DNA of 21,139 bases, taken from positions 1 to 21,139 of IMG/VR virus record IMGVR_UViG_3300029319_000628; one strand, written 5' to 3'. The translations under genes were made by a program, and so were the position numbers. The stretch is from a virus. The notes below the pieces were generated by a model. It worked only from the letters and a program-made list of their open reading frames with translations, did not search any database and was not told the DNA's origin. This document shows, piece after piece, positions 8,929-20,160 of this stretch (the first letter of the stretch is position 1; the number at the start of each line of letters is the position of its first letter).

Positions 8929-10611
8929 TTACTTTTTTACTACAAAATAGTTACCAATTACAAGATAATCCAAATCGATATTCTTAAAAGTTTTAATAGC
9001 ATCTTTTGGAGTTTCTACGATTGGTTGACCATTATCATTGAAAGATGTATTCAGAAGGACAGGACATTTGGTCTCTTCATTATACTTTTGTAGAAGTGTA
9101 GTGACTTCTGGGTGCAACTCTTTATTTACAGTTTGGATTCTACAAGAGAAATCTTTATGTGTGATTGCTCCAAGTTTCTTCCTTTGATGTGGTCTTACAA
9201 TCAGAGAGTATAGCATATATTCGTTTGGATATGTGTCCATGAAGTACTCTTCTTGGTATTCCTCAAGCATAATGCCTGCAAAAGGACGCCATTCCTCTCT
9301 GTGTTTGATGCGAGTATTTATTGTCTCCTTATTTTCTTTCGGTGTTGGATTCATCAAAATAGATCTGGAACCCAATGCTCTTGGTCCAAACTCTGAACGG
9401 TTCTGGAACCATCCGACAATCTTATTGTCGGCAAGAACCTTCACAGTTTCATCACACAGTTCCTCAAAGTTATCAAACTTCTTATAGTCTGTTCCTTCAA
9501 GTGCTTCCTCAATTTCTTCATCACTATAAGTGCGTCCGAGAAGTGAAATGTTATGTGGAAGAGTTACCTTTTCCTTTGACTTGAATACACCATAACATGC
9601 CGCACCGAATGAGAGTCCTGTATCATCAGGGAATGGTGGGATATGCATGTTCTCCGCAATAGCATTCTTACGAATCACAGAGTTTGCAAGGATATTAAGG
9701 AAGACACCACCAGCAAGACAAAGATTATCTTCAATGTATCCCTTCTCTTTAAGTTCTTTCATCCATTCAAGCATCGCATTTTCAAAGTTATATTGAAGTT
9801 GCTTTGCTTTGTTTTCGGCAGAAAGATTGCCATAGTTAAAGTCACGTCCAGGGAAGGACTCTAGTGCTACCTGAGGAATACCTTCAAAATGAAGTCTCCA
9901 GTCTTTTTTAAGTTCCTTTGTGTTTCCATAAGCAGAGAGACCCATCACCTTACCACAGAAAGTCTCACGATACTTTGGATCAGTAAGATTAATATTCTTC
10001 TGAACCATCTGACAATAAATGTTGTGTGCCCACAACCAATAATAGTTTCCAAGATTATTAGTCATTGGAATACCAGCATGATACCTGAAGATACCTTTCT
10101 CTTTATTGAAATATCCAAATGAGTGATTCTCACAAGCAAAGATACTTCCGGCAGTGTCAAACAAGATAGATCCGGCATTATCTAATGTAATGAAAGATCC
10201 TTCATTGTGATCGCAGGAGAACACAGAAGAATATGCATGGCACATGTGATGCGATACAATCTCTACCTTTGCTTTTGGAAAATATCTTTTAACTTTCTTC
10301 TCAACAGTTTTGTTGATGTAATTCTTATAGAAATTTTGATTAGCCATCGATGGAACAATGACTACATCAATATCTTCTTTAGAAAGATTGCTTGCGGACA
10401 AACAATATTCTATTGACTTGCGTGGAAAGTTCCCATCATACTTAATACCACTGAGTCTTTCCTCACTGATACTTGCAATATGATTTCCATCAGAGAAAAG
10501 AGTCACACTAGCACCGTGTGTCCAACTGTCCTCTGATTGCTGACGAAGTTTTGGATTGTCTGAAATCAAAACATTCCAACCAATCGCACCATAAAGTCCA
10601 ATTACATTCAT
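8929..10611 (-). CDS. Carbamoyltransferase, NodU/CmcH family
   Basis: The 560-residue length is normal for the family, which transfers a carbamoyl group from carbamoyl phosphate via carbamoyl-adenylate to a sugar or other hydroxyl. Visible motifs are HGASVTLFSDG (about 32-42), SEERLSGIKYDGNFP (about 49-63), the metal-binding SHHMCHAYSSVF (120-131) and LAGGVFLNILANSV (about 298-311) of the N-terminal Kae1-like domain, and the C-terminal-domain signature WFQNRSEFGPRALGSRSILM. The ATG overlaps the glycosyltransferase stop as ATGA. The acceptor is probably a sugar placed by that enzyme, but this is inference. Other cyanophages carry carbamoyltransferases of unknown target. Confidence 0.9.
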   Translation of the reverse strand: MNVIGLYGAIGWNVLISDNPKLRQQSEDSWTHGASVTLFSDGNHIASISEERLSGIKYDGNFPRKSIEYCLSASNLSKEDIDVVIVPSMANQNFYKNYINKTVEKKVKRYFPKAKVEIVSHHMCHAYSSVFSCDHNEGSFITLDNAGSILFDTAGSIFACENHSFGYFNKEKGIFRYHAGIPMTNNLGNYYWLWAHNIYCQMVQKNINLTDPKYRETFCGKVMGLSAYGNTKELKKDWRLHFEGIPQVALESFPGRDFNYGNLSAENKAKQLQYNFENAMLEWMKELKEKGYIEDNLCLAGGVFLNILANSVIRKNAIAENMHIPPFPDDTGLSFGAACYGVFKSKEKVTLPHNISLLGRTYSDEEIEEALEGTDYKKFDNFEELCDETVKVLADNKIVGWFQNRSEFGPRALGSRSILMNPTPKENKETINTRIKHREEWRPFAGIMLEEYQEEYFMDTYPNEYMLYSLIVRPHQRKKLGAITHKDFSCRIQTVNKELHPEVTTLLQKYNEETKCPVLLNTSFNDNGQPIVETPKDAIKTFKNIDLDYLVIGNYFVVKK

Positions 10612-11880: not shown

Positions 11881-12711
11881 CTATTTAGAGGTCCAGAACT
11901 CAAGTGATTGTTTGTTCTGTTTATAAAGATCAAAGATCTCTTTTGGCAAAACAGACTCTGGAGAACTAGAAGTTTTCTCTAGTTTAGAATGAACTTCGTG
12001 CATATCACCAAGTCCATAAGTGTTTAGATCATTCTCCCTATGAGGATTGGAGAGATCATCAAACGTGTGTTCATAATATTCTTCTCCTAAGAAGTCATAG
12101 ATATCCTCCATAACTTGCTCAGGATTACTCACCATATCATTATAGTCTATAAAATGCATTTTGTCACGCATGTTCTGTTCAAGTCCCAACTTGACCGCAT
12201 TCAATGACTCATATACAATGCCATCAGGATTTAATAGATGAGTGCATCTATTATAATCATTAATGGGTTGATTTGTTTTTACCAAATATTCATCAACAAA
12301 ATTAATTCTATCCTGTCCCTCTTGGAAAGGATTACGATGAATCATTGAAAGAACGGACGTAAGAATCTCATCCACTCGACGAACGGGAACAAGAATCTTT
12401 GCCTGCTGTTTAATATATTGTTCAATGTAGGGCACTCTTGCCGTCCATGCACGATTCTTATCAAAGACAATAGGTTCTTCTACATCACTATAAAAATGAT
12501 GAGGGACACTACCAATGAGTTCTATTACTTGGTCTGGTTTTGGATATCCAGTATACAGTTCATTTGTAGTGAAGTTCTCCTCCAGTGCATACATTGCACC
12601 AAGCACAGGACTTGATGGACCAGAATAAAATCTTGGGTTTTGATTTAGAATAGACGAAAGCAAGGTACTACCCGACCTGGGTAGTCCAGCCATAAAATAA
12701 AATGTCTTCAT
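11881..12711 (-). CDS. Sulfotransferase family protein
   Basis: The 276-residue protein opens MKTFYFMAGLPRSGSTLLSS; GLPRSGSTLL (9-18) is the 5'-phosphosulfate loop that binds the sulfate donor PAPS. The likely 3'-phosphate-binding segment is ILVPVRRVDEILTSVLSMIH. A later VMEDIYDFLGEEYYEHTF resembles the helix-rich C-terminal part of sulfotransferases, including protein-tyrosine types. It would move sulfate from PAPS to a hydroxyl on sugar or protein. Substrate unknown. It lies between small unknown genes in the glycosyltransferase and fiber cluster. Related P-loop kinases are less likely given the motif. Confidence 0.82.
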   Translation of the reverse strand: MKTFYFMAGLPRSGSTLLSSILNQNPRFYSGPSSPVLGAMYALEENFTTNELYTGYPKPDQVIELIGSVPHHFYSDVEEPIVFDKNRAWTARVPYIEQYIKQQAKILVPVRRVDEILTSVLSMIHRNPFQEGQDRINFVDEYLVKTNQPINDYNRCTHLLNPDGIVYESLNAVKLGLEQNMRDKMHFIDYNDMVSNPEQVMEDIYDFLGEEYYEHTFDDLSNPHRENDLNTYGLGDMHEVHSKLEKTSSSPESVLPKEIFDLYKQNKQSLEFWTSK

Positions 12712-12727
12712 ACCAAACGATCTAAAA

Positions 12728-13114
12728 TCAAAGTGCGTTCAATGCGTTCTGTGCTTCCGTATCTTTTGCATCTGCAGCAGTGTTTTTAGTTGCTGCAGTG
12801 TCAGTATCTCCACTTTCTTCGGCAGTTCTTGCCTCTTCACGGAGAGTTGCTGCTTCATCAAGAGGTGTCTTAACAGAATTAAATTGCGTTTCGGTCAGTT
12901 CGATGACAGCATTCTTAGATCCTACTGCAATTGTAGAAATTGCAGTACCGTCAGGAACTTTAGAAAGACAGACATCAACACCATCAGAATCATGCATCCA
13001 GATATTTACATCCAAACCAGGATAATCTGCTTCTGGGTGATGCTGCTCTACTTGGTTAGAAGTAGTCAACCAACTACCATTTTTCTTCCAATAATGTTTT
13101 AAATATTTTGTCAT
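12728..13114 (-). CDS. Hypothetical protein with helical Ala/Glu/Thr-rich C-terminus
   Basis: The 128-residue protein has a globular first half (MTKYLKHYWKKNGSWLTTSN, then YPGLDVNIWMHDSDGVDVCL) and a long alanine-, glutamate- and threonine-rich second half (TLREEARTAEESGDTDTAAT) likely to form a coiled coil. No family recognised. The design would suit a small virion or fiber-associated protein. A perfect TATAAATA late-promoter octamer lies 21 bases upstream of its ATG, supporting late expression. Confidence 0.6.
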   Translation of the reverse strand: MTKYLKHYWKKNGSWLTTSNQVEQHHPEADYPGLDVNIWMHDSDGVDVCLSKVPDGTAISTIAVGSKNAVIELTETQFNSVKTPLDEAATLREEARTAEESGDTDTAATKNTAADAKDTEAQNALNAL

Positions 13115-13134: not shown

Positions 13135-13142
13135 TATTTATA
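13135..13142 (-). promoter_or_regulatory. Candidate T4-type late promoter TATAAATA
   Basis: The minus strand carries the exact TATAAATA octamer recognised in T4 by gp55 with gp33, 21 bases before the ATG at 13114 and overlapping the stop codon of the oxygenase gene. gp33 is encoded in this window, so late transcription of this type is expected. AT-rich sequence makes chance matches possible. Confidence 0.5.
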
Positions 13143-13800
13143 CCACAGGAACTCCGTATTGTTGTGACAACTGACGATTGATATCATCCATACTTGGTTG
13201 ACCTTTCACAGTAGCCCAACACACAATACTATATCTTTTACCTCTTGTCACTGGTTCTACTCCGTGCATATAGTAATGACTAGATGGGAAACAAACCATC
13301 ATACCAGGTTCGGGTCTCACACGGATGTGATGTTCTGGAAAAATAAAATCACCACCTTCAAAATCATCATTCAGATAGAACACCATTGAGATATCTCTAT
13401 CGGTAGATTTCTTCCAAATATGTTCTCCCTTTGGTGTGACCCAGATACTCTCTCCATCAATGTGAGGTTTATAGTGTCCACCAACACCATAAGATAAAAC
13501 CTGTGGAACTTCACTACTATCAATTTCAATGCCATAAAAAGGATTAATGATTTCTTTTACGGCATGACGAAGAAGTCCTTCGATCTTGGGGAACAATGGT
13601 CCCATGGGAACAATCTGAGTATCTCTTGTCTTCTTATCAACCTGCCATGAAGTCTCTCCGGTTCTATTTGTAGTCTCCGCATCAAACACAGAAAGATCTT
13701 CACAAGGAGATCTCTTGATATGATCAACCATCTCCCGAATACCTTCGGGAGAAATTACATTAGGTCGAATTAAAATGTGAGTCAGTGGATTATCAATCAT
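13138..13800 (-). CDS. 2OG-Fe(II) oxygenase, prolyl-4-hydroxylase-like
   Basis: The 220-residue protein has the 2-oxoglutarate/iron oxygenase core: LSYGVGGHYKPHIDGES with H113 and D115 of the HxD motif, RDISMVFYLNDDFEGGDFIF (strand and G-G-x-F pair), PEPGMMVCFPSSHYYMHGVE with the distal iron ligand H179, and PVTRGKRYSIVCW with the basic residue that binds 2OG (R189 or K188). This is the layout of the P4H/PKHD group common in cyanophages. It hydroxylates an unknown target. It starts 30 bases after the giant repeat gene, with an extended -10 promoter between; its position suggests the fiber as a possible substrate. Confidence 0.88.
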   Translation of the reverse strand: MIDNPLTHILIRPNVISPEGIREMVDHIKRSPCEDLSVFDAETTNRTGETSWQVDKKTRDTQIVPMGPLFPKIEGLLRHAVKEIINPFYGIEIDSSEVPQVLSYGVGGHYKPHIDGESIWVTPKGEHIWKKSTDRDISMVFYLNDDFEGGDFIFPEHHIRVRPEPGMMVCFPSSHYYMHGVEPVTRGKRYSIVCWATVKGQPSMDDINRQLSQQYGVPVV

Positions 13801-13829: not shown

Positions 13830-16800
13830 TTATTGGGGAAGTCCATGGGCTGCTGCTGACATTCCTCGATGGTCTAATCTAAAGTGCTTCATTGGTCCTT
13901 TTAATACTGCTGTATTAGTATCGTTAGCATAATCAAGACGATGCACCTGCGAATTTCCAGAAGGACTAGGACCAGGATCACCACCAGTAAAATAACCAAA
14001 GGAAGCATTGCCTGTTGCTCCCATTCGTTCCTTCGAAGATGCTAATGGTCCTCTTGATAATGCCGTTGCAGTGTCATTAGAATAATCTACACGAGATAGA
14101 GTGCTCCTAGAAGGATAACCACTACCAAAGTAACCAAAGGAACCATTACCGGTTGCTGTAAGACGACCAAGCTCTAGATGTAAAAATCCTTTTGCTGCAG
14201 CTGTGGCAGTGTCATTAGAATAATCAATACGGTCTACTGTTGACATGTACACCCATCCACCACCAAAGTAACCAAAGCTTTGATTACCTGTTGCTGCCAA
14301 CCTATTTCTAGCAACAGTCAATGGGCCTTTTGGTGATGCCGTTGAAGTATCAGTAGAATAATCAAGACGATCTACTGTTGATGCTGTACTCGGAGCATCT
14401 CCACCACCAAAGTATCCAAAGGAAGCATCACCTGTTGCTGCAGCATATTTTCTACCAACACTTAATGGTCCTCTTGCTAATGACGTTGCAGTGTCATTAT
14501 TAAAATCAATACGATCTATTGATGTAACATCAGCACCTGCTGGGAAACTGTATCCACCAGCCACATAACCAAAACTACTATTATTAGTTGCACCAGCACT
14601 ATATTCTCTTTCTGCAACACTCAATGATCCTTTTTCTACTCCCGTTACAGTATCATTATTGAAGTTAATGCGATCAAGAGATGATTTTGCCGGAGTGCTT
14701 GAAGGACCAGTAGTCCGAACATTTCCACCACCAAAGTATCCAAAAGATGTAATTGGATATGTTGGAATCAAACGATTTTCAACCACTGCTGGACCCAATA
14801 TATTATCGAATCCATTTTCTCTGGCACCTGTTGCTCCCATATAATGTCTGCCAACAGATAAGTTACCTCTTGGTGATGCCGTTGCGGTATCATTGGAATA
14901 ATCAACACGGTCAACGGTCGAACCGTTCGAGTGGCCAGCAAAATAACCATGAGTGGAAGTGCCTGTTGCTCCCATGTAATTTCTGCTACCCGTTAATGGT
15001 CCCTTAGGTGATGCCGTTGCGGTATCATTGGAATAATCAATACGATCTACTATCGATCTTGGAGTGCTATTATAACCACCACCAAAGTATCCAAAGGAGG
15101 CATTGCCTGTTGCTCCATTGACACCATATCTAGCTAGACTCAGTGGTCCCTTTACTACGGACTGTGCACTATCATTAGAATAGTCAATACGATTTACTGT
15201 TGATATTGCACCACTAATGTAACCACCAGCAACATAACCAAAGTCTTGATTACCTGTTGCACCATGATAAATGGAAGTACTTGACAGATTACCTCTTTCT
15301 GATGCCGTAGCGGTGTCATTTGCATAATTAATACGGTCTACTATTGTCCCAGCAGCAGGAGAACCACCAACCGTATATCCAAAGTCTTTATTACCCGTTG
15401 CTGCTACATATTGTCTAGCAAGACTCAATGGTCCTCTTGGTGATGCCGTTGCAGTATCATTCAAGTAATCAATACGTTGAACTAATGAGAGATTTGAAGG
15501 AGATGAAGCTGGATTTTCTCCACCCATGGCATAACCATGAGTACCACTACTTACTGCACTATTTCGTTGCGTCCTAGTTTCCAATGATCCTTTTGCCACT
15601 GCTGTTGCGGTATCATTGGAATAATCAATACGATCTACAATTGATTCCCAGTTAGGATTTGTCGCAGTTTGTCTACCAGCAACAAAGTAACCCATGTTAG
15701 AAGTTCCATAAGTTCCTGCTGCATAATTCACTGTTCTTACTTCTTTTAGAGGAAGTGCATTTGCCCGAGGACTTGCTGCTGCTAACATATTCCTGGCAAC
15801 ACTCAATGGTCCTTTTGATGCTGCTGTCGCAGTATCATTAGAATAATCAACACGTTCTACTGTTGATTTTGCTGGACCAGGAGCACCACCACCAAAGTAA
15901 CCAAAGTCAGCATTACCTGTTGCTGTAAGTTCTTTTCTCGTTGCACCAAGAGGTCCTTTGGATGCTGCTGTTGCGGTGTCATTGGAATAATCAACACGGA
16001 ATATCGAACTAGTCACACTTCCAAGATGATTCGAACCACCACCAAAGTATCCAAAGTTAGCATTACCTGTTGCTCCATGAGAATGCTTCTGTTGACCCAA
16101 AACACCTTTTGGTGATGCTGCTGTGGTATCACTAGAATAATCTAAACGATCCACAACAGAATATTGAGCTAGTGCTGGATTTCCCCCACCACCAAAGTAA
16201 CCAAAGTTAGTATTACCTGTTGCTGCTACAAAACGTCTACCAACACTTAATGGTCCTTTTGCTACTGCCGTTGCGGTGTCATTAGCATAGTCTACGCGGT
16301 CTACTGTTGTTACGTAAGCAGAACCACCGGCAGGACCTAAACGTCCACCACCAAAGTAACCGAAAGAAGAAGTTCCCGTGGATCCAAGGTATCTTCTAGC
16401 ACTAGATAATGGTCCTTTAGGTGATGCCGTTGCCGTATCATTAGAATAATCAATACGGTCCATTCTTGATGCCGCAGGATTACGACCACCAAAGTAACCA
16501 AAGTCCTGATTTCCTGTTGCTGATAATCCCGGTGCAGGACCACTCAATGGTCCCTTGACTGCTGCCGTTGCGGTGTCATTAGAATAATCAGTACGGTCTA
16601 CTGTTGTTTTTGAAGGACTACCACCACCAAAATAACCAAAGTCAGTTCCGACAGAAGTAAGACTGGTAACACTAAAAGCACCGAATGATGTTGCTACTAC
16701 TAAAGGTCCAGGTCCTTTGAGTGGATTACCATTCATTCTAGAACTTGATCCTGAGTGTTGCTGTCTCGATTGAACTAATGGTCCTTTGACTGCTGCTGTT

Positions 16801-19634
16801 GCGGTGTCGTTAGAGTAATCCAAACGATCTACTGTTGTTACATCAGGATTACCACCTCCACTCCAATATCCAAAATCAGCATTACCCATTGCTCCCTTAC
16901 CATACTTAGAGGTAGCTAATGGTCCTCTTGCCAATGCCGTTGCGGTGTCATTAGAGTAATCAATACGATCTATATTTGAAACATCACCACCATATCCACC
17001 ACCACCAATGTATCCAAAGTTAGCATTACCTGTTCCTGCCGTAAATCCATTACCGTAATCAGTTCTTGGAAGCATATTTCCTTTTGGTGATGCCGTTACG
17101 GTGTCATTCGAATAGTCAACTCTACTTATTGTTGTTAGACTAGTCCAAGCACCAGCAAAGTAACCAAATGATTGATTACCCATTGCCGCAAAATAAAAAT
17201 GAATAGCTGACAAATTACCTTTTGCTGCTGCCGTTGCAGTATCATTAGAATAATCAATACGGTCTACTGATGATATTGCAGATGAAGTATTTCTTCCACC
17301 ACCAAAATAACCAAAGTCAGTATTACCTGTTGCTGCCCCGCCATATCTTACGTCGGTTAATGGTCCTTTTGGTGATTTCGCGGCGCTATCGTTAGAATAA
17401 TCAAGACGGTCTACTGATGATTTGCCTGTAGTAGGAGAAGCACTATAATCCTGCCCTCCAGCAAAATATCCATGAGAGGCACTACTTGCTGCTAACCCAC
17501 GATAAATCTCAGGAGTTGTTGGTCCTCTTCCTGTTGCCGTTACGGTATCATTAGAAAAATCGATACGTTGTAACTGCTGAGAAGTTCCTGGCGTTCCACG
17601 ATCATAGTATCCAAAGTCAGTTCCTAGTGGTACTATATTATCTCTAGCATCGTCTGCTGAAAAAAGTGCAGTTAAAAGACCAGTGTTAGTAGAAAGTGCA
17701 TTTGCTGCTGCACTTGATGCTGCCAATTGACTTCTAGCAACACTCAATGACCCTTTTGCTACTGCGGTTGCCGTATCATTAGAATAATCAATACGATCTA
17801 CTAATGATACTACAGAGGGAGATTCACCACCACCAAAGTATCCAAAAGAACTATTTCCTGTTGCTGCCAAATCTTGTCTACCACCACTTAAAAGACCTTT
17901 AAGTGATGCGGTGGCAGTATCATTAGAATAATCAATACGATCTACTGATGATTTGTAACTAGGACCACCACCACCAAAGTAACCAAAGTCACTATTACCT
18001 GTTGCTGCAATGTGTCCTCTAGCAACACTCAATGGTCCTTTAGGTGATGCTGTAGAAGTATCACTTGAGTAATCTATACGGTCTACTGTTGTTCTATATG
18101 AAGGTCTTCCACCACCAAAGTATCCAAAGTTGGTATTACCCGTCGATCCAAGAAGACTTCTAGCTTCACTTAATGATCCCTTTGTTGCCGCAGTTGCTGT
18201 ATCATTAGAATAATCAATACGATCTACTGTTGATAGTGAACCAGGAGCTCCACCACCAAAGTATCCAAAGGAAGAATTACCTGTTGCTGCCAAATATGAT
18301 CTAGCAGAACTCAATGGACCTTTTGGTGATGCTGTAGAAGTATCACTTGAGTAATCTATACGGTCTACTGATGATTTATTAGGAGTATAACCACCACCAA
18401 AGTAACCAAAAGAACTATTACCTGTTGCTGCTAAGAATCCTCTAGCACTAATTAATGGTCCTTTTGTTGATGCCGATGCAGTATCATTAGAATAATCAAT
18501 ACGATCTACTGTTGTTTTATACGAGAACGCACTAACTTCACCACCACCAAAATAACCAAAGTTAGTTGCTACTGGTGATATGTTTGAAGTATCAGGAAGT
18601 CCTTGTTCTTTACGACTTAGTGCTGCAGAATCATATCTTGAAGTACTACCACCATAACCATTTGAAAGTCTTCCTCCTGCTACTGCTGCATTTGCAGTGT
18701 CATTAGAATAATCAATTTTAGACAATATTCCTTCACTATAACCCGCATGATATCCAAAGTTTTGATTACTTGTTGCGCTATGATACTGAAAGTAAATATT
18801 ATTATTGTTTATTGGACCTTTAGTTGATGCCGTAGCAGTATCATTAGAGTATTGAATCCGAGTTACCGTGGTTGAAAAACTGTTGGAAGGAGTGCTACCA
18901 CCAGCAAAATAACCAAAAGAACTATTGGATGATGCATTATGACCATGTAGAGGAACACTGAGTGGTCCTTTTGGTGATGCCGTGGCAGTATCATTACCAT
19001 AATCAATACGGATTACTGTTGATCTTGCACTAGGAATGGAGCCTCCACCAGTAATGTAACCAAAACTTTGATTACCTGTTGCTGTCAAATAATCTTCTGA
19101 TTCGCTTAATGGACCTTTTACTACTGGTGTTGCGGTGTCATTACCATAATCAATACGGCTCACTGTTGATATACTACCACTAACATATCCACCAACAACA
19201 TAACCAAAGTTAATATTTCCTACAGATGAATGCGTGTATATACTATAACTTAGTGGTCCTCTAAGTGACATTTGTGACGTATCATTAGAGAAATCAAGAC
19301 GTTGTACAAATGATCTTGTACCAGGAGTGGTATCAGAACCACCAGTAAGATAACCGAAAACAGAACTACTAGTTGCTGCGTGTTTCTCAACACTAGAGTT
19401 AAATGATCCCTTTGATAATGTATCTGCACTATCATTAGAAAAATCAAGACGATCTATCGTGGTTATACCAGCTGATTCAGTGCTAGGATTTCGACCACCA
19501 GTCCAATATCCAAAAGGAGCAGGACTAGATGCAAAAAAAGGACTCGGAGTTAACCAAACATCACCTCTCGTGGACCAAGTTCCAGAGAGTTGCTCTTCGT
19601 ATACTTGCTTTAATCTAAATATTCCCCTAGACAT
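13830..19634 (-). CDS. Giant 36-repeat protein, predicted six tandem six-bladed beta-propellers (fiber/adhesin)
   Basis: This 1934-residue protein is 40 N-terminal residues (MSRGIFRLKQVYEEQLSGTW...) followed wholly by 36 repeats of 46-57 residues (longer where a linker follows). The consensus is FGYFGGG, a variable 4-13 residue loop, STVDRIDYSNDTATA, S/A-x-KGPL, then AATGNxx. The Gly-Gly after hydrophobics and the periodic strands resemble kelch-type blades. After blades 6, 12, 18, 24 and 30 the repeat ends in a longer linker, dividing the protein into six blocks of 318, 315, 325, 315, 317 and 304 residues. No enzyme motif, signal or chaperone domain is seen. The short N-terminus is the likely virion attachment. 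The start overlaps the DUF6445 gene by 8 bases. Role in host recognition or decoration is inferred. Confidence 0.85.
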   Translation of the reverse strand: MSRGIFRLKQVYEEQLSGTWSTRGDVWLTPSPFFASSPAPFGYWTGGRNPSTESAGITTIDRLDFSNDSADTLSKGSFNSSVEKHAATSSSVFGYLTGGSDTTPGTRSFVQRLDFSNDTSQMSLRGPLSYSIYTHSSVGNINFGYVVGGYVSGSISTVSRIDYGNDTATPVVKGPLSESEDYLTATGNQSFGYITGGGSIPSARSTVIRIDYGNDTATASPKGPLSVPLHGHNASSNSSFGYFAGGSTPSNSFSTTVTRIQYSNDTATASTKGPINNNNIYFQYHSATSNQNFGYHAGYSEGILSKIDYSNDTANAAVAGGRLSNGYGGSTSRYDSAALSRKEQGLPDTSNISPVATNFGYFGGGEVSAFSYKTTVDRIDYSNDTASASTKGPLISARGFLAATGNSSFGYFGGGYTPNKSSVDRIDYSSDTSTASPKGPLSSARSYLAATGNSSFGYFGGGAPGSLSTVDRIDYSNDTATAATKGSLSEARSLLGSTGNTNFGYFGGGRPSYRTTVDRIDYSSDTSTASPKGPLSVARGHIAATGNSDFGYFGGGGPSYKSSVDRIDYSNDTATASLKGLLSGGRQDLAATGNSSFGYFGGGESPSVVSLVDRIDYSNDTATAVAKGSLSVARSQLAASSAAANALSTNTGLLTALFSADDARDNIVPLGTDFGYYDRGTPGTSQQLQRIDFSNDTVTATGRGPTTPEIYRGLAASSASHGYFAGGQDYSASPTTGKSSVDRLDYSNDSAAKSPKGPLTDVRYGGAATGNTDFGYFGGGRNTSSAISSVDRIDYSNDTATAAAKGNLSAIHFYFAAMGNQSFGYFAGAWTSLTTISRVDYSNDTVTASPKGNMLPRTDYGNGFTAGTGNANFGYIGGGGYGGDVSNIDRIDYSNDTATALARGPLATSKYGKGAMGNADFGYWSGGGNPDVTTVDRLDYSNDTATAAVKGPLVQSRQQHSGSSSRMNGNPLKGPGPLVVATSFGAFSVTSLTSVGTDFGYFGGGSPSKTTVDRTDYSNDTATAAVKGPLSGPAPGLSATGNQDFGYFGGRNPAASRMDRIDYSNDTATASPKGPLSSARRYLGSTGTSSFGYFGGGRLGPAGGSAYVTTVDRVDYANDTATAVAKGPLSVGRRFVAATGNTNFGYFGGGGNPALAQYSVVDRLDYSSDTTAASPKGVLGQQKHSHGATGNANFGYFGGGSNHLGSVTSSIFRVDYSNDTATAASKGPLGATRKELTATGNADFGYFGGGAPGPAKSTVERVDYSNDTATAASKGPLSVARNMLAAASPRANALPLKEVRTVNYAAGTYGTSNMGYFVAGRQTATNPNWESIVDRIDYSNDTATAVAKGSLETRTQRNSAVSSGTHGYAMGGENPASSPSNLSLVQRIDYLNDTATASPRGPLSLARQYVAATGNKDFGYTVGGSPAAGTIVDRINYANDTATASERGNLSSTSIYHGATGNQDFGYVAGGYISGAISTVNRIDYSNDSAQSVVKGPLSLARYGVNGATGNASFGYFGGGYNSTPRSIVDRIDYSNDTATASPKGPLTGSRNYMGATGTSTHGYFAGHSNGSTVDRVDYSNDTATASPRGNLSVGRHYMGATGARENGFDNILGPAVVENRLIPTYPITSFGYFGGGNVRTTGPSSTPAKSSLDRINFNNDTVTGVEKGSLSVAEREYSAGATNNSSFGYVAGGYSFPAGADVTSIDRIDFNNDTATSLARGPLSVGRKYAAATGDASFGYFGGGDAPSTASTVDRLDYSTDTSTASPKGPLTVARNRLAATGNQSFGYFGGGWVYMSTVDRIDYSNDTATAAAKGFLHLELGRLTATGNGSFGYFGSGYPSRSTLSRVDYSNDTATALSRGPLASSKERMGATGNASFGYFTGGDPGPSPSGNSQVHRLDYANDTNTAVLKGPMKHFRLDHRGMSAAAHGLPQ
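18043..18088 (-). repeat. 46-base exact repeat, copy in blade 10
   Basis: These 46 bases match 18325-18370 exactly, coding the blade core around DRIDYSSDTSTASP. The copies are 282 bases (two blades) apart, pointing to recent duplication or gene conversion inside block 2. Confidence 0.9.
18325..18370 (-). repeat. 46-base exact repeat, copy in blade 8
   Basis: Identical to 18043-18088, while flanking bases and the intervening blade 9 differ. The identity includes synonymous positions. Confidence 0.9.
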
Positions 19635-20160
19635 TTTGTATTAACAGCTTCTGGTATATCATTGAGTTATTTAGTTGGTCACCAAAACCATCCCCATATG
19701 AATGCCACAAATCTGCACTGAATAATACAATACGATTATACTTTACATATACATTAGAATATTCTTTCCACTCTTCTTTATTATTGGGATCAAATGTTCT
19801 CATAATATCTTCTTGCGTCTGAATGCCATGCAACTGACAAGCATACTCATCCGGGAATGAGTCAAATCCAGTCTTTAGATGACTATAAAAACTCATACCT
19901 CTCTTTGATACACAATCACCGGGCATTGTTAAGTAGATGACTGCAATCCAATCACAGGCAACATTAGCAGTGATTGGATTTGGAGTATTCTTGAGAGAAA
20001 CTTCATTAAATAAGTTCTCTGCTTTTATCTGACGACCCAGAAGGTGTGAAATCTTCTGGGGTGCCTCGTCAGTAAAAATTGGTTCACCTTCGATGATACC
20101 TTTAAGATATGCATGTGCCATATCATAAAAGTCATCGGCAACAATAATCTTTTGATTCAT
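19627..20160 (-). CDS. DUF6445 family protein (possible 2OG-oxygenase-like fold)
   Basis: The 177-residue protein has the pattern I know for DUF6445: KIIVADDFYDMAHAYLKGII at the start, CDWIAVIYLTMPGDCVSKRG, then MSFYSHLKTGFDSF, and NRIVLFSADLWHSYGDGFGD near the end. Families of this kind are distant relatives of cupin-type 2OG oxygenases; two histidines in equivalent strands (in SHLKTG and LWHSYG) fit, but a full HxD...H triad is not evident, so catalysis is uncertain. It starts three bases after the upstream gene's stop with AGGG in front, and its stop overlaps the giant repeat gene. That tight coupling hints it acts on, or with, that protein. Confidence 0.65.
   Translation of the reverse strand: MNQKIIVADDFYDMAHAYLKGIIEGEPIFTDEAPQKISHLLGRQIKAENLFNEVSLKNTPNPITANVACDWIAVIYLTMPGDCVSKRGMSFYSHLKTGFDSFPDEYACQLHGIQTQEDIMRTFDPNNKEEWKEYSNVYVKYNRIVLFSADLWHSYGDGFGDQLNNSMIYQKLLIQNV

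Follow-up and report, generated by a model that had tools for sequence, protein, structure and literature searches.

Predicted propeller gene and repeat organization

The sequence analyzed (the window) is 21,139 nt and represents a fragment of a T4-like cyanophage near Synechococcus phage S-SKS1; in parts of the gp32/gp59/thyX region the two are 79% identical. The main feature is a gene read from the minus strand, position 19634 down to 13830, which encodes a protein of 1934 aa and lies next to enzyme genes (Table 1). A motif parse of the protein reveals 36 repeats. They are arranged in six blocks that start at residues 41, 359, 674, 999, 1314 and 1631 and are 318, 315, 325, 315, 317 and 304 aa in length, respectively. 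The same 36 domains are found with a blade HMM made of ordinary repeats, which is independent of the motif parse. The repeat start-to-start distance is 46–57 aa inside blocks and increases to 66–78 aa only after repeats 6, 12, 18, 24 and 30. Each block terminates in a closing motif, i.e., RKEQGLP, SAAANALS, RMNGNPL, PRANALP, RENGF and SAAAHGLP for blocks 1 to 6; the consensus in the family is approximately A(T/S)SxRANALP. An initial annotation of this DNA had described exactly 36 repeats, these six block lengths, long extensions at repeats 6, 12, 18, 24 and 30 alone, and a related closing motif at every block end. Both parses confirm the repeat number, the lengths are reproduced exactly, and the spacings and the six motifs agree with the remaining two statements.

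Table 1. Features of the window around the gene with kelch-like repeats; propellers are predicted
Feature	Position	Strand	Basis or remarks
Whole gene, 36 kelch-like repeats in six blocks, 1934 aa	13830..19634	(-)	motif parse and blade HMM
N-terminal 40 residues, class A, putative attachment segment, conserved RGIFxLxxVYExQLxGxWSxKxDVWLxPSPF	19515..19634	(-)	N-termini of relatives aligned; function inferred
Propeller 1, repeats 1–6, residues 41–347	18594..19514	(-)	repeat parse and block alignment
Linker 1, residues 348–358	18561..18593	(-)	repeat parse, comparison with relatives
Propeller 2, repeats 7–12, residues 359–648	17691..18560	(-)	repeat parse and block alignment
Linker 2, residues 649–673	17616..17690	(-)	repeat parse, comparison with relatives
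Propeller 3, repeats 13–18, residues 674–972	16719..17615	(-)	repeat parse and block alignment
Linker 3, residues 973–998	16641..16718	(-)	repeat parse, comparison with relatives
Propeller 4, repeats 19–24, residues 999–1295	15750..16640	(-)	repeat parse and block alignment
Linker 4, residues 1296–1313	15696..15749	(-)	repeat parse, comparison with relatives
Propeller 5, repeats 25–30, residues 1314–1609	14808..15695	(-)	repeat parse; AlphaFold2 model
Linker 5, residues 1610–1630	14745..14807	(-)	repeat parse, comparison with relatives
Propeller 6, repeats 31–36, residues 1631–1934, end = closing motif SAAAHGLPQ	13833..14744	(-)	repeat parse and block alignment
F1, DUF6445-like, 8-nt overlap with start of propeller gene (same in most class A relatives)	19627..20160	(-)	
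F0, 2OG-Fe(II) oxygenase, immediately downstream of propeller gene	13138..13800	(-)	
F2, small protein, function unassigned, at 34 loci	12728..13114	(-)	
F3, sulfotransferase, P-loop PRSGST; in relatives directly precedes class B propeller gene	11881..12711	(-)	

The 40 residues that precede block 1 contain a motif that is conserved among relatives, as seen in an alignment of N-termini. A search for this segment in other phage proteins gave chance matches only (best E about 0.2), and it has no match outside the propeller proteins at the loci; it therefore shows no tie to any known docking domain. The window protein has no recognizable trimerization domain or known anchor. On the basis of gene context and the conserved motif, it is plausible that the segment is a virion anchor.

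Predicted fold of the blocks

An AlphaFold2 model of block 5 (window positions 14787–15716, cut at the proposed block boundary) was obtained with 150 homologous blocks aligned and has a pLDDT of 92.6 and a pTM of 0.92. Comparison by VIA-align with the designed six-bladed protein SAKe6AC gives a Z of 38.2 and 1.8 Å over 271 of 277 residues. The Z for Keap1 is 37.5, with model residues 7–298 on Keap1 326–609, and this superposition extends over the entire closed domain and takes in the C-terminal strand with which blade 1 is completed. Foldseek also relates the model to Keap1 (E 6e-20). The superpositions are the sole basis of what is said here on blade geometry.

When a profile of the 150 blocks was compared with 177,635 PDB sequences, only KLHL12 (2.9e-6) and the designed SAKe (5.4e-5) matched. 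The whole window protein has no match in Pfam and matches PHROG 19111, whose function is unassigned there; Kelch_3 of Pfam is matched by 9 of the 150 blocks (best 2e-7). A di-glycine follows strand B: of about 1115 repeats, 987 have G at repeat position 6 and 1022 have G at position 7. The classical kelch motif has a Tyr/Trp pair; in the phage repeats Tyr or Phe is conserved at position 21, and the consensus lacks the Trp further on. A kelch-type fold had been suggested before for the blocks, and it is what both the superpositions and the PDB profile return: the predicted fold of block 5 is a six-bladed kelch-type beta-propeller, a fold whose ring is made up of 5–8 four-stranded blades in general. 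Blocks 1–4 and 6 have 44–53% identity to block 5, so the same fold is expected of them. Because the confident model covers one block, cut at the proposed boundary, we infer closure of the rings in the intact chain from the multiple-of-six rule of the family described below; repeat counts and linkers in the family are all in phase with six-repeat blocks.

Relatives and repeat number

Three scans of IMG/VR yielded about 100 loci, many of which overlap one another on a shared contig. Removal of 95% duplicates left 65 intact phage homologues. The repeat count is a multiple of six in all 65 (6 repeats in one protein, 12 in 18, 18 in 18, 24 in 12, 30 in 10 and 36 in 6), a rule already present in a first set of 49 relatives. 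The median spacing is 72 (55–100) at the 160 block boundaries and 48 (36–59) for the 1125 spacings within blocks. In one group of two-propeller proteins the linkers are short (55–61) and still occur at the sixth repeat. Linkers at other repeat numbers, which had been named as evidence against closed six-bladed units, are not found among the 65 relatives. Since every relative in this set obeys the rule and spacings within blocks stay at or below 59 aa, chance is excluded as the source of the 36-repeat pattern.

Apparent odd counts (25, 17, 16 and 11 repeats) result from broken frames, from a final repeat that is truncated or, probably, from diverged repeats missed by the HMM. For example, a class B propeller gene at L019 (7336–12058) is split into two overlapping frames; one has 6 and the other 25 partial repeats, which in sum agree with 30. 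Eleven further ORFs with an N-terminus of about 140 aa have 12 repeats each (L094, L098, L100, L102–L105, L109, L110, L112 and L113); this N-terminal region has no PHROG match in the two members tested. A scan of 84,980 bacterial and archaeal genomes revealed no relative.

Sequence comparisons indicate that gain, loss and exchange involve entire propellers. Between the window protein and that of L001, blocks 1, 5 and 6 are 89, 84 and 70% identical, while blocks 2–4 are only 67, 54 and 52% identical. There are only five blocks in the protein of L015, where linker 1 is a fusion of the closing motif of window block 1 with the latter half of linker 2 of the window. This fusion implies the loss or gain of exactly one propeller, from linker to linker, in L015 relative to the window and L001. 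A single six-repeat propeller is also found embedded in two adhesin-like proteins that are unrelated in their other parts: at L059 (7099–10218) a glycine-rich domain precedes it, and at L048 (884–2521) a lectin-type sequence precedes it and a Laminin_G_3 match follows. Together with the block 5 model, the PDB profile match and the multiple-of-six rule, the whole-propeller indel and the embedded single propellers support the earlier proposal of six closed six-bladed propellers on a string.

Up to three distinct propeller genes are present per phage. Of 17 pairs of genes on the same contig, 10 agree in the number of propellers, compared with an expectation of 4.0 (p 0.002, with no correction for ancestry); shared ancestry may be the source of this agreement. 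Examples are L045 (18/18/18 repeats), L056 (24/24) and L026 (36/36).

Loop variability

A comparison of 1125 repeats shows a near-invariant core and two variable segments, positions 8–13, which follow GGG and contain the main length variation, and positions 36–41. By comparison with kelch domains these correspond to the BC and DA loops. Their entropy is 2.4–3.9 bits, and between close relatives they differ 2.4–3.0 times more often than the core. The substrate-facing surface of the kelch protein KLHL20 is made up of these two loop sets (PMC6720452).

Gene neighborhood

In longer relatives the gene order is a gp9-connector-like gene (phrog_677 match, 7e-21), tail-fiber genes, a class C propeller gene, F7, F5 (glycosyltransferase), F1, a class A propeller gene, F1/F3, a class B propeller gene and F0; the location in a tail-fiber module holds for these longer relatives, the 21 kb window being too short. 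The classes A, B and C are our own grouping by N-terminal motif, and some diverged members fall outside it. An overlap of 8 nt with F1 is present in most class A genes and one of about 14 nt with F3 in most class B genes, while class C genes come directly after the tail-fiber-like F13. In F0, the iron and 2OG ligand residues H113, D115, H179 and R189 are kept in 30 of 30 members, and in F3 the PAPS loop is kept. Enzyme genes (2OG oxygenase, DUF6445-like, sulfotransferase, glycosyltransferase) are consistently interleaved with propeller genes in the window and at L001, L006, L019, L026 and L045. A carbamoyltransferase-like gene, F9, is present at 20 loci and lies downstream of the propeller region in the window (8929–10611); its Pfam match comes from the L006 member. 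With so many enzymes in the neighborhood, not every neighboring gene is structural.

Possible function

The protein is likely to be a string of separately closed six-bladed kelch propellers that serves as a side or tail fiber, or adhesin, of a T4-like cyanophage. Its location in the virion, its attachment by the N-terminus and its receptor binding are all putative. The chain would consist of the short N-terminal segment and six closed propellers joined by linkers of 11–26 residues. Each block would begin with blade strand B and end with a C-terminal strand A and the closing motif, an arrangement that suggests 3+1 ring closure as in Keap1. The N-terminus would attach the chain to the virion, and the invariant propellers would form a rod of about 20–30 nm (an estimate), in which they serve both as spacers and as the heads that bind. 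Multivalent contact with host surface molecules may be made through the hypervariable BC and DA loops, which lie on a single face of each propeller. A multivalent adhesin fiber is proposed because the variation is in these loops, which are the substrate surface of kelch domains; a modular, multi-headed host-binding fiber is probable in that the number of complete propellers ranges from one to six in the relatives, whose genes are located among tail-fiber genes.

A propeller string could also be part of the virion and yet be passive, i.e., a whisker, spacer or decoration fiber in which the loop variation reflects loose constraint and not receptor choice. The kelch protein CBB_552 is a virion structural protein of jumbo phage CBB, which has tail whiskers (PMC5259590), matches in BFVD include proteins of PhiPA3 and Noxifer named virion structural protein, and the number of propellers varies freely. 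Loose constraint, however, does not account well for variability that is concentrated in two loop sets of the kelch ligand face over a near-invariant core. The presence of up to three distinct genes per phage among tail-fiber genes, and the combination of a single propeller with LamG or glycine-rich domains, likewise make a passive fiber unlikely.

An intracellular or secreted scaffold that acts during infection would account for the overlap or contact of propeller genes with DUF6445, sulfotransferase, 2OG oxygenase and glycosyltransferase genes in nearly all loci. Such a scaffold might, e.g., assemble the linked glycosyl-, sulfo- and carbamoyltransferases together with the oxygenases for the remodeling of sugars on the host surface, and kelch domains are often protein-binding platforms. 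The longer clusters, however, begin with gp9-connector-like and tail-fiber genes, class C genes are placed directly after tail-fiber-like F13, mosaic members join adhesin-type domains, and propeller size and number fit a fiber better, so that a non-virion role appears improbable.

A continuous beta-solenoid is very improbable: its basis, a model of residues 1–998 (three blocks) that matched beta-helix proteins, was discarded, and the matches mean little since it has a pLDDT of 44.8 with nine sequences, whereas with 150 sequences a block models as a closed kelch propeller, and a solenoid would not need repeat counts in multiples of six.

A more elaborate form of the host-binding fiber brings in the neighboring enzymes. 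Each propeller class would be paired with an enzyme of its own that is co-translated with it (the DUF6445-like protein in class A, the sulfotransferase in class B), which together with the shared 2OG oxygenase and glycosyltransferases would hydroxylate, sulfate or glycosylate near-invariant blade residues (DYSNDT), resulting in a chemically modified multi-propeller fiber. This extension is regarded as doubtful.

Comparison with known systems

In the usual picture, a phage fiber is a trimeric rod, beta-helical in structure, that carries a receptor tip. The family from environmental viromes described here consists of whole predicted kelch propellers, one to six per chain, with variation on the ligand face. 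Reach and specificity could be altered in modular fashion by addition or swapping of complete propellers, and these proteins may represent a natural counterpart to designed symmetric propellers.

The phage blocks resemble Keap1, KLHL12 and SAKe6 in the six four-stranded blades, 3+1 closure, GG motif and variable BC/DA loops. Eukaryotic kelch domains usually occur singly on a chain, with BTB partners; in contrast, the phage proteins chain one to six propellers and have no BTB domain. Several six-bladed propellers on one chain are also present in the LRP/LDL-receptor, a multi-ligand receptor. Those propellers are eukaryotic, belong to the YWTD and not the kelch family, and have EGF modules between them.

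Kelch folds are already known in phages. The jumbo-phage proteins (CBB_550/552/554, PhiPA3, Noxifer, PS119XW) are likewise kelch propellers, some annotated or detected as virion structural. Many of their BFVD entries are propeller-sized (280–320 aa) with about 10–20% identity, and no integer-propeller string was found described for them in the literature covered. Chained propellers in cyanophages, or a family of fibers with an integer number of propellers, were not found described in the open-license literature, and the family appears to be new.

S-SKS1 (Llyrvirus; PHROG 19111) is the only cultured near relative found and makes the fiber interpretation testable. It has the same repeat, a sulfotransferase gene upstream, the same N-terminal segments (RGIFGL, DVFGL and AIFSL types) and, in three genes, the linker SGGASERIKGSRT after repeat 6. 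It differs in that there are apparently two propellers per gene, annotated as hypothetical or not at all. The three S-SKS1 propeller genes are split by frame breaks in the record (L009, L011, record ends), which may represent sequencing errors in the repeats or decayed genes.
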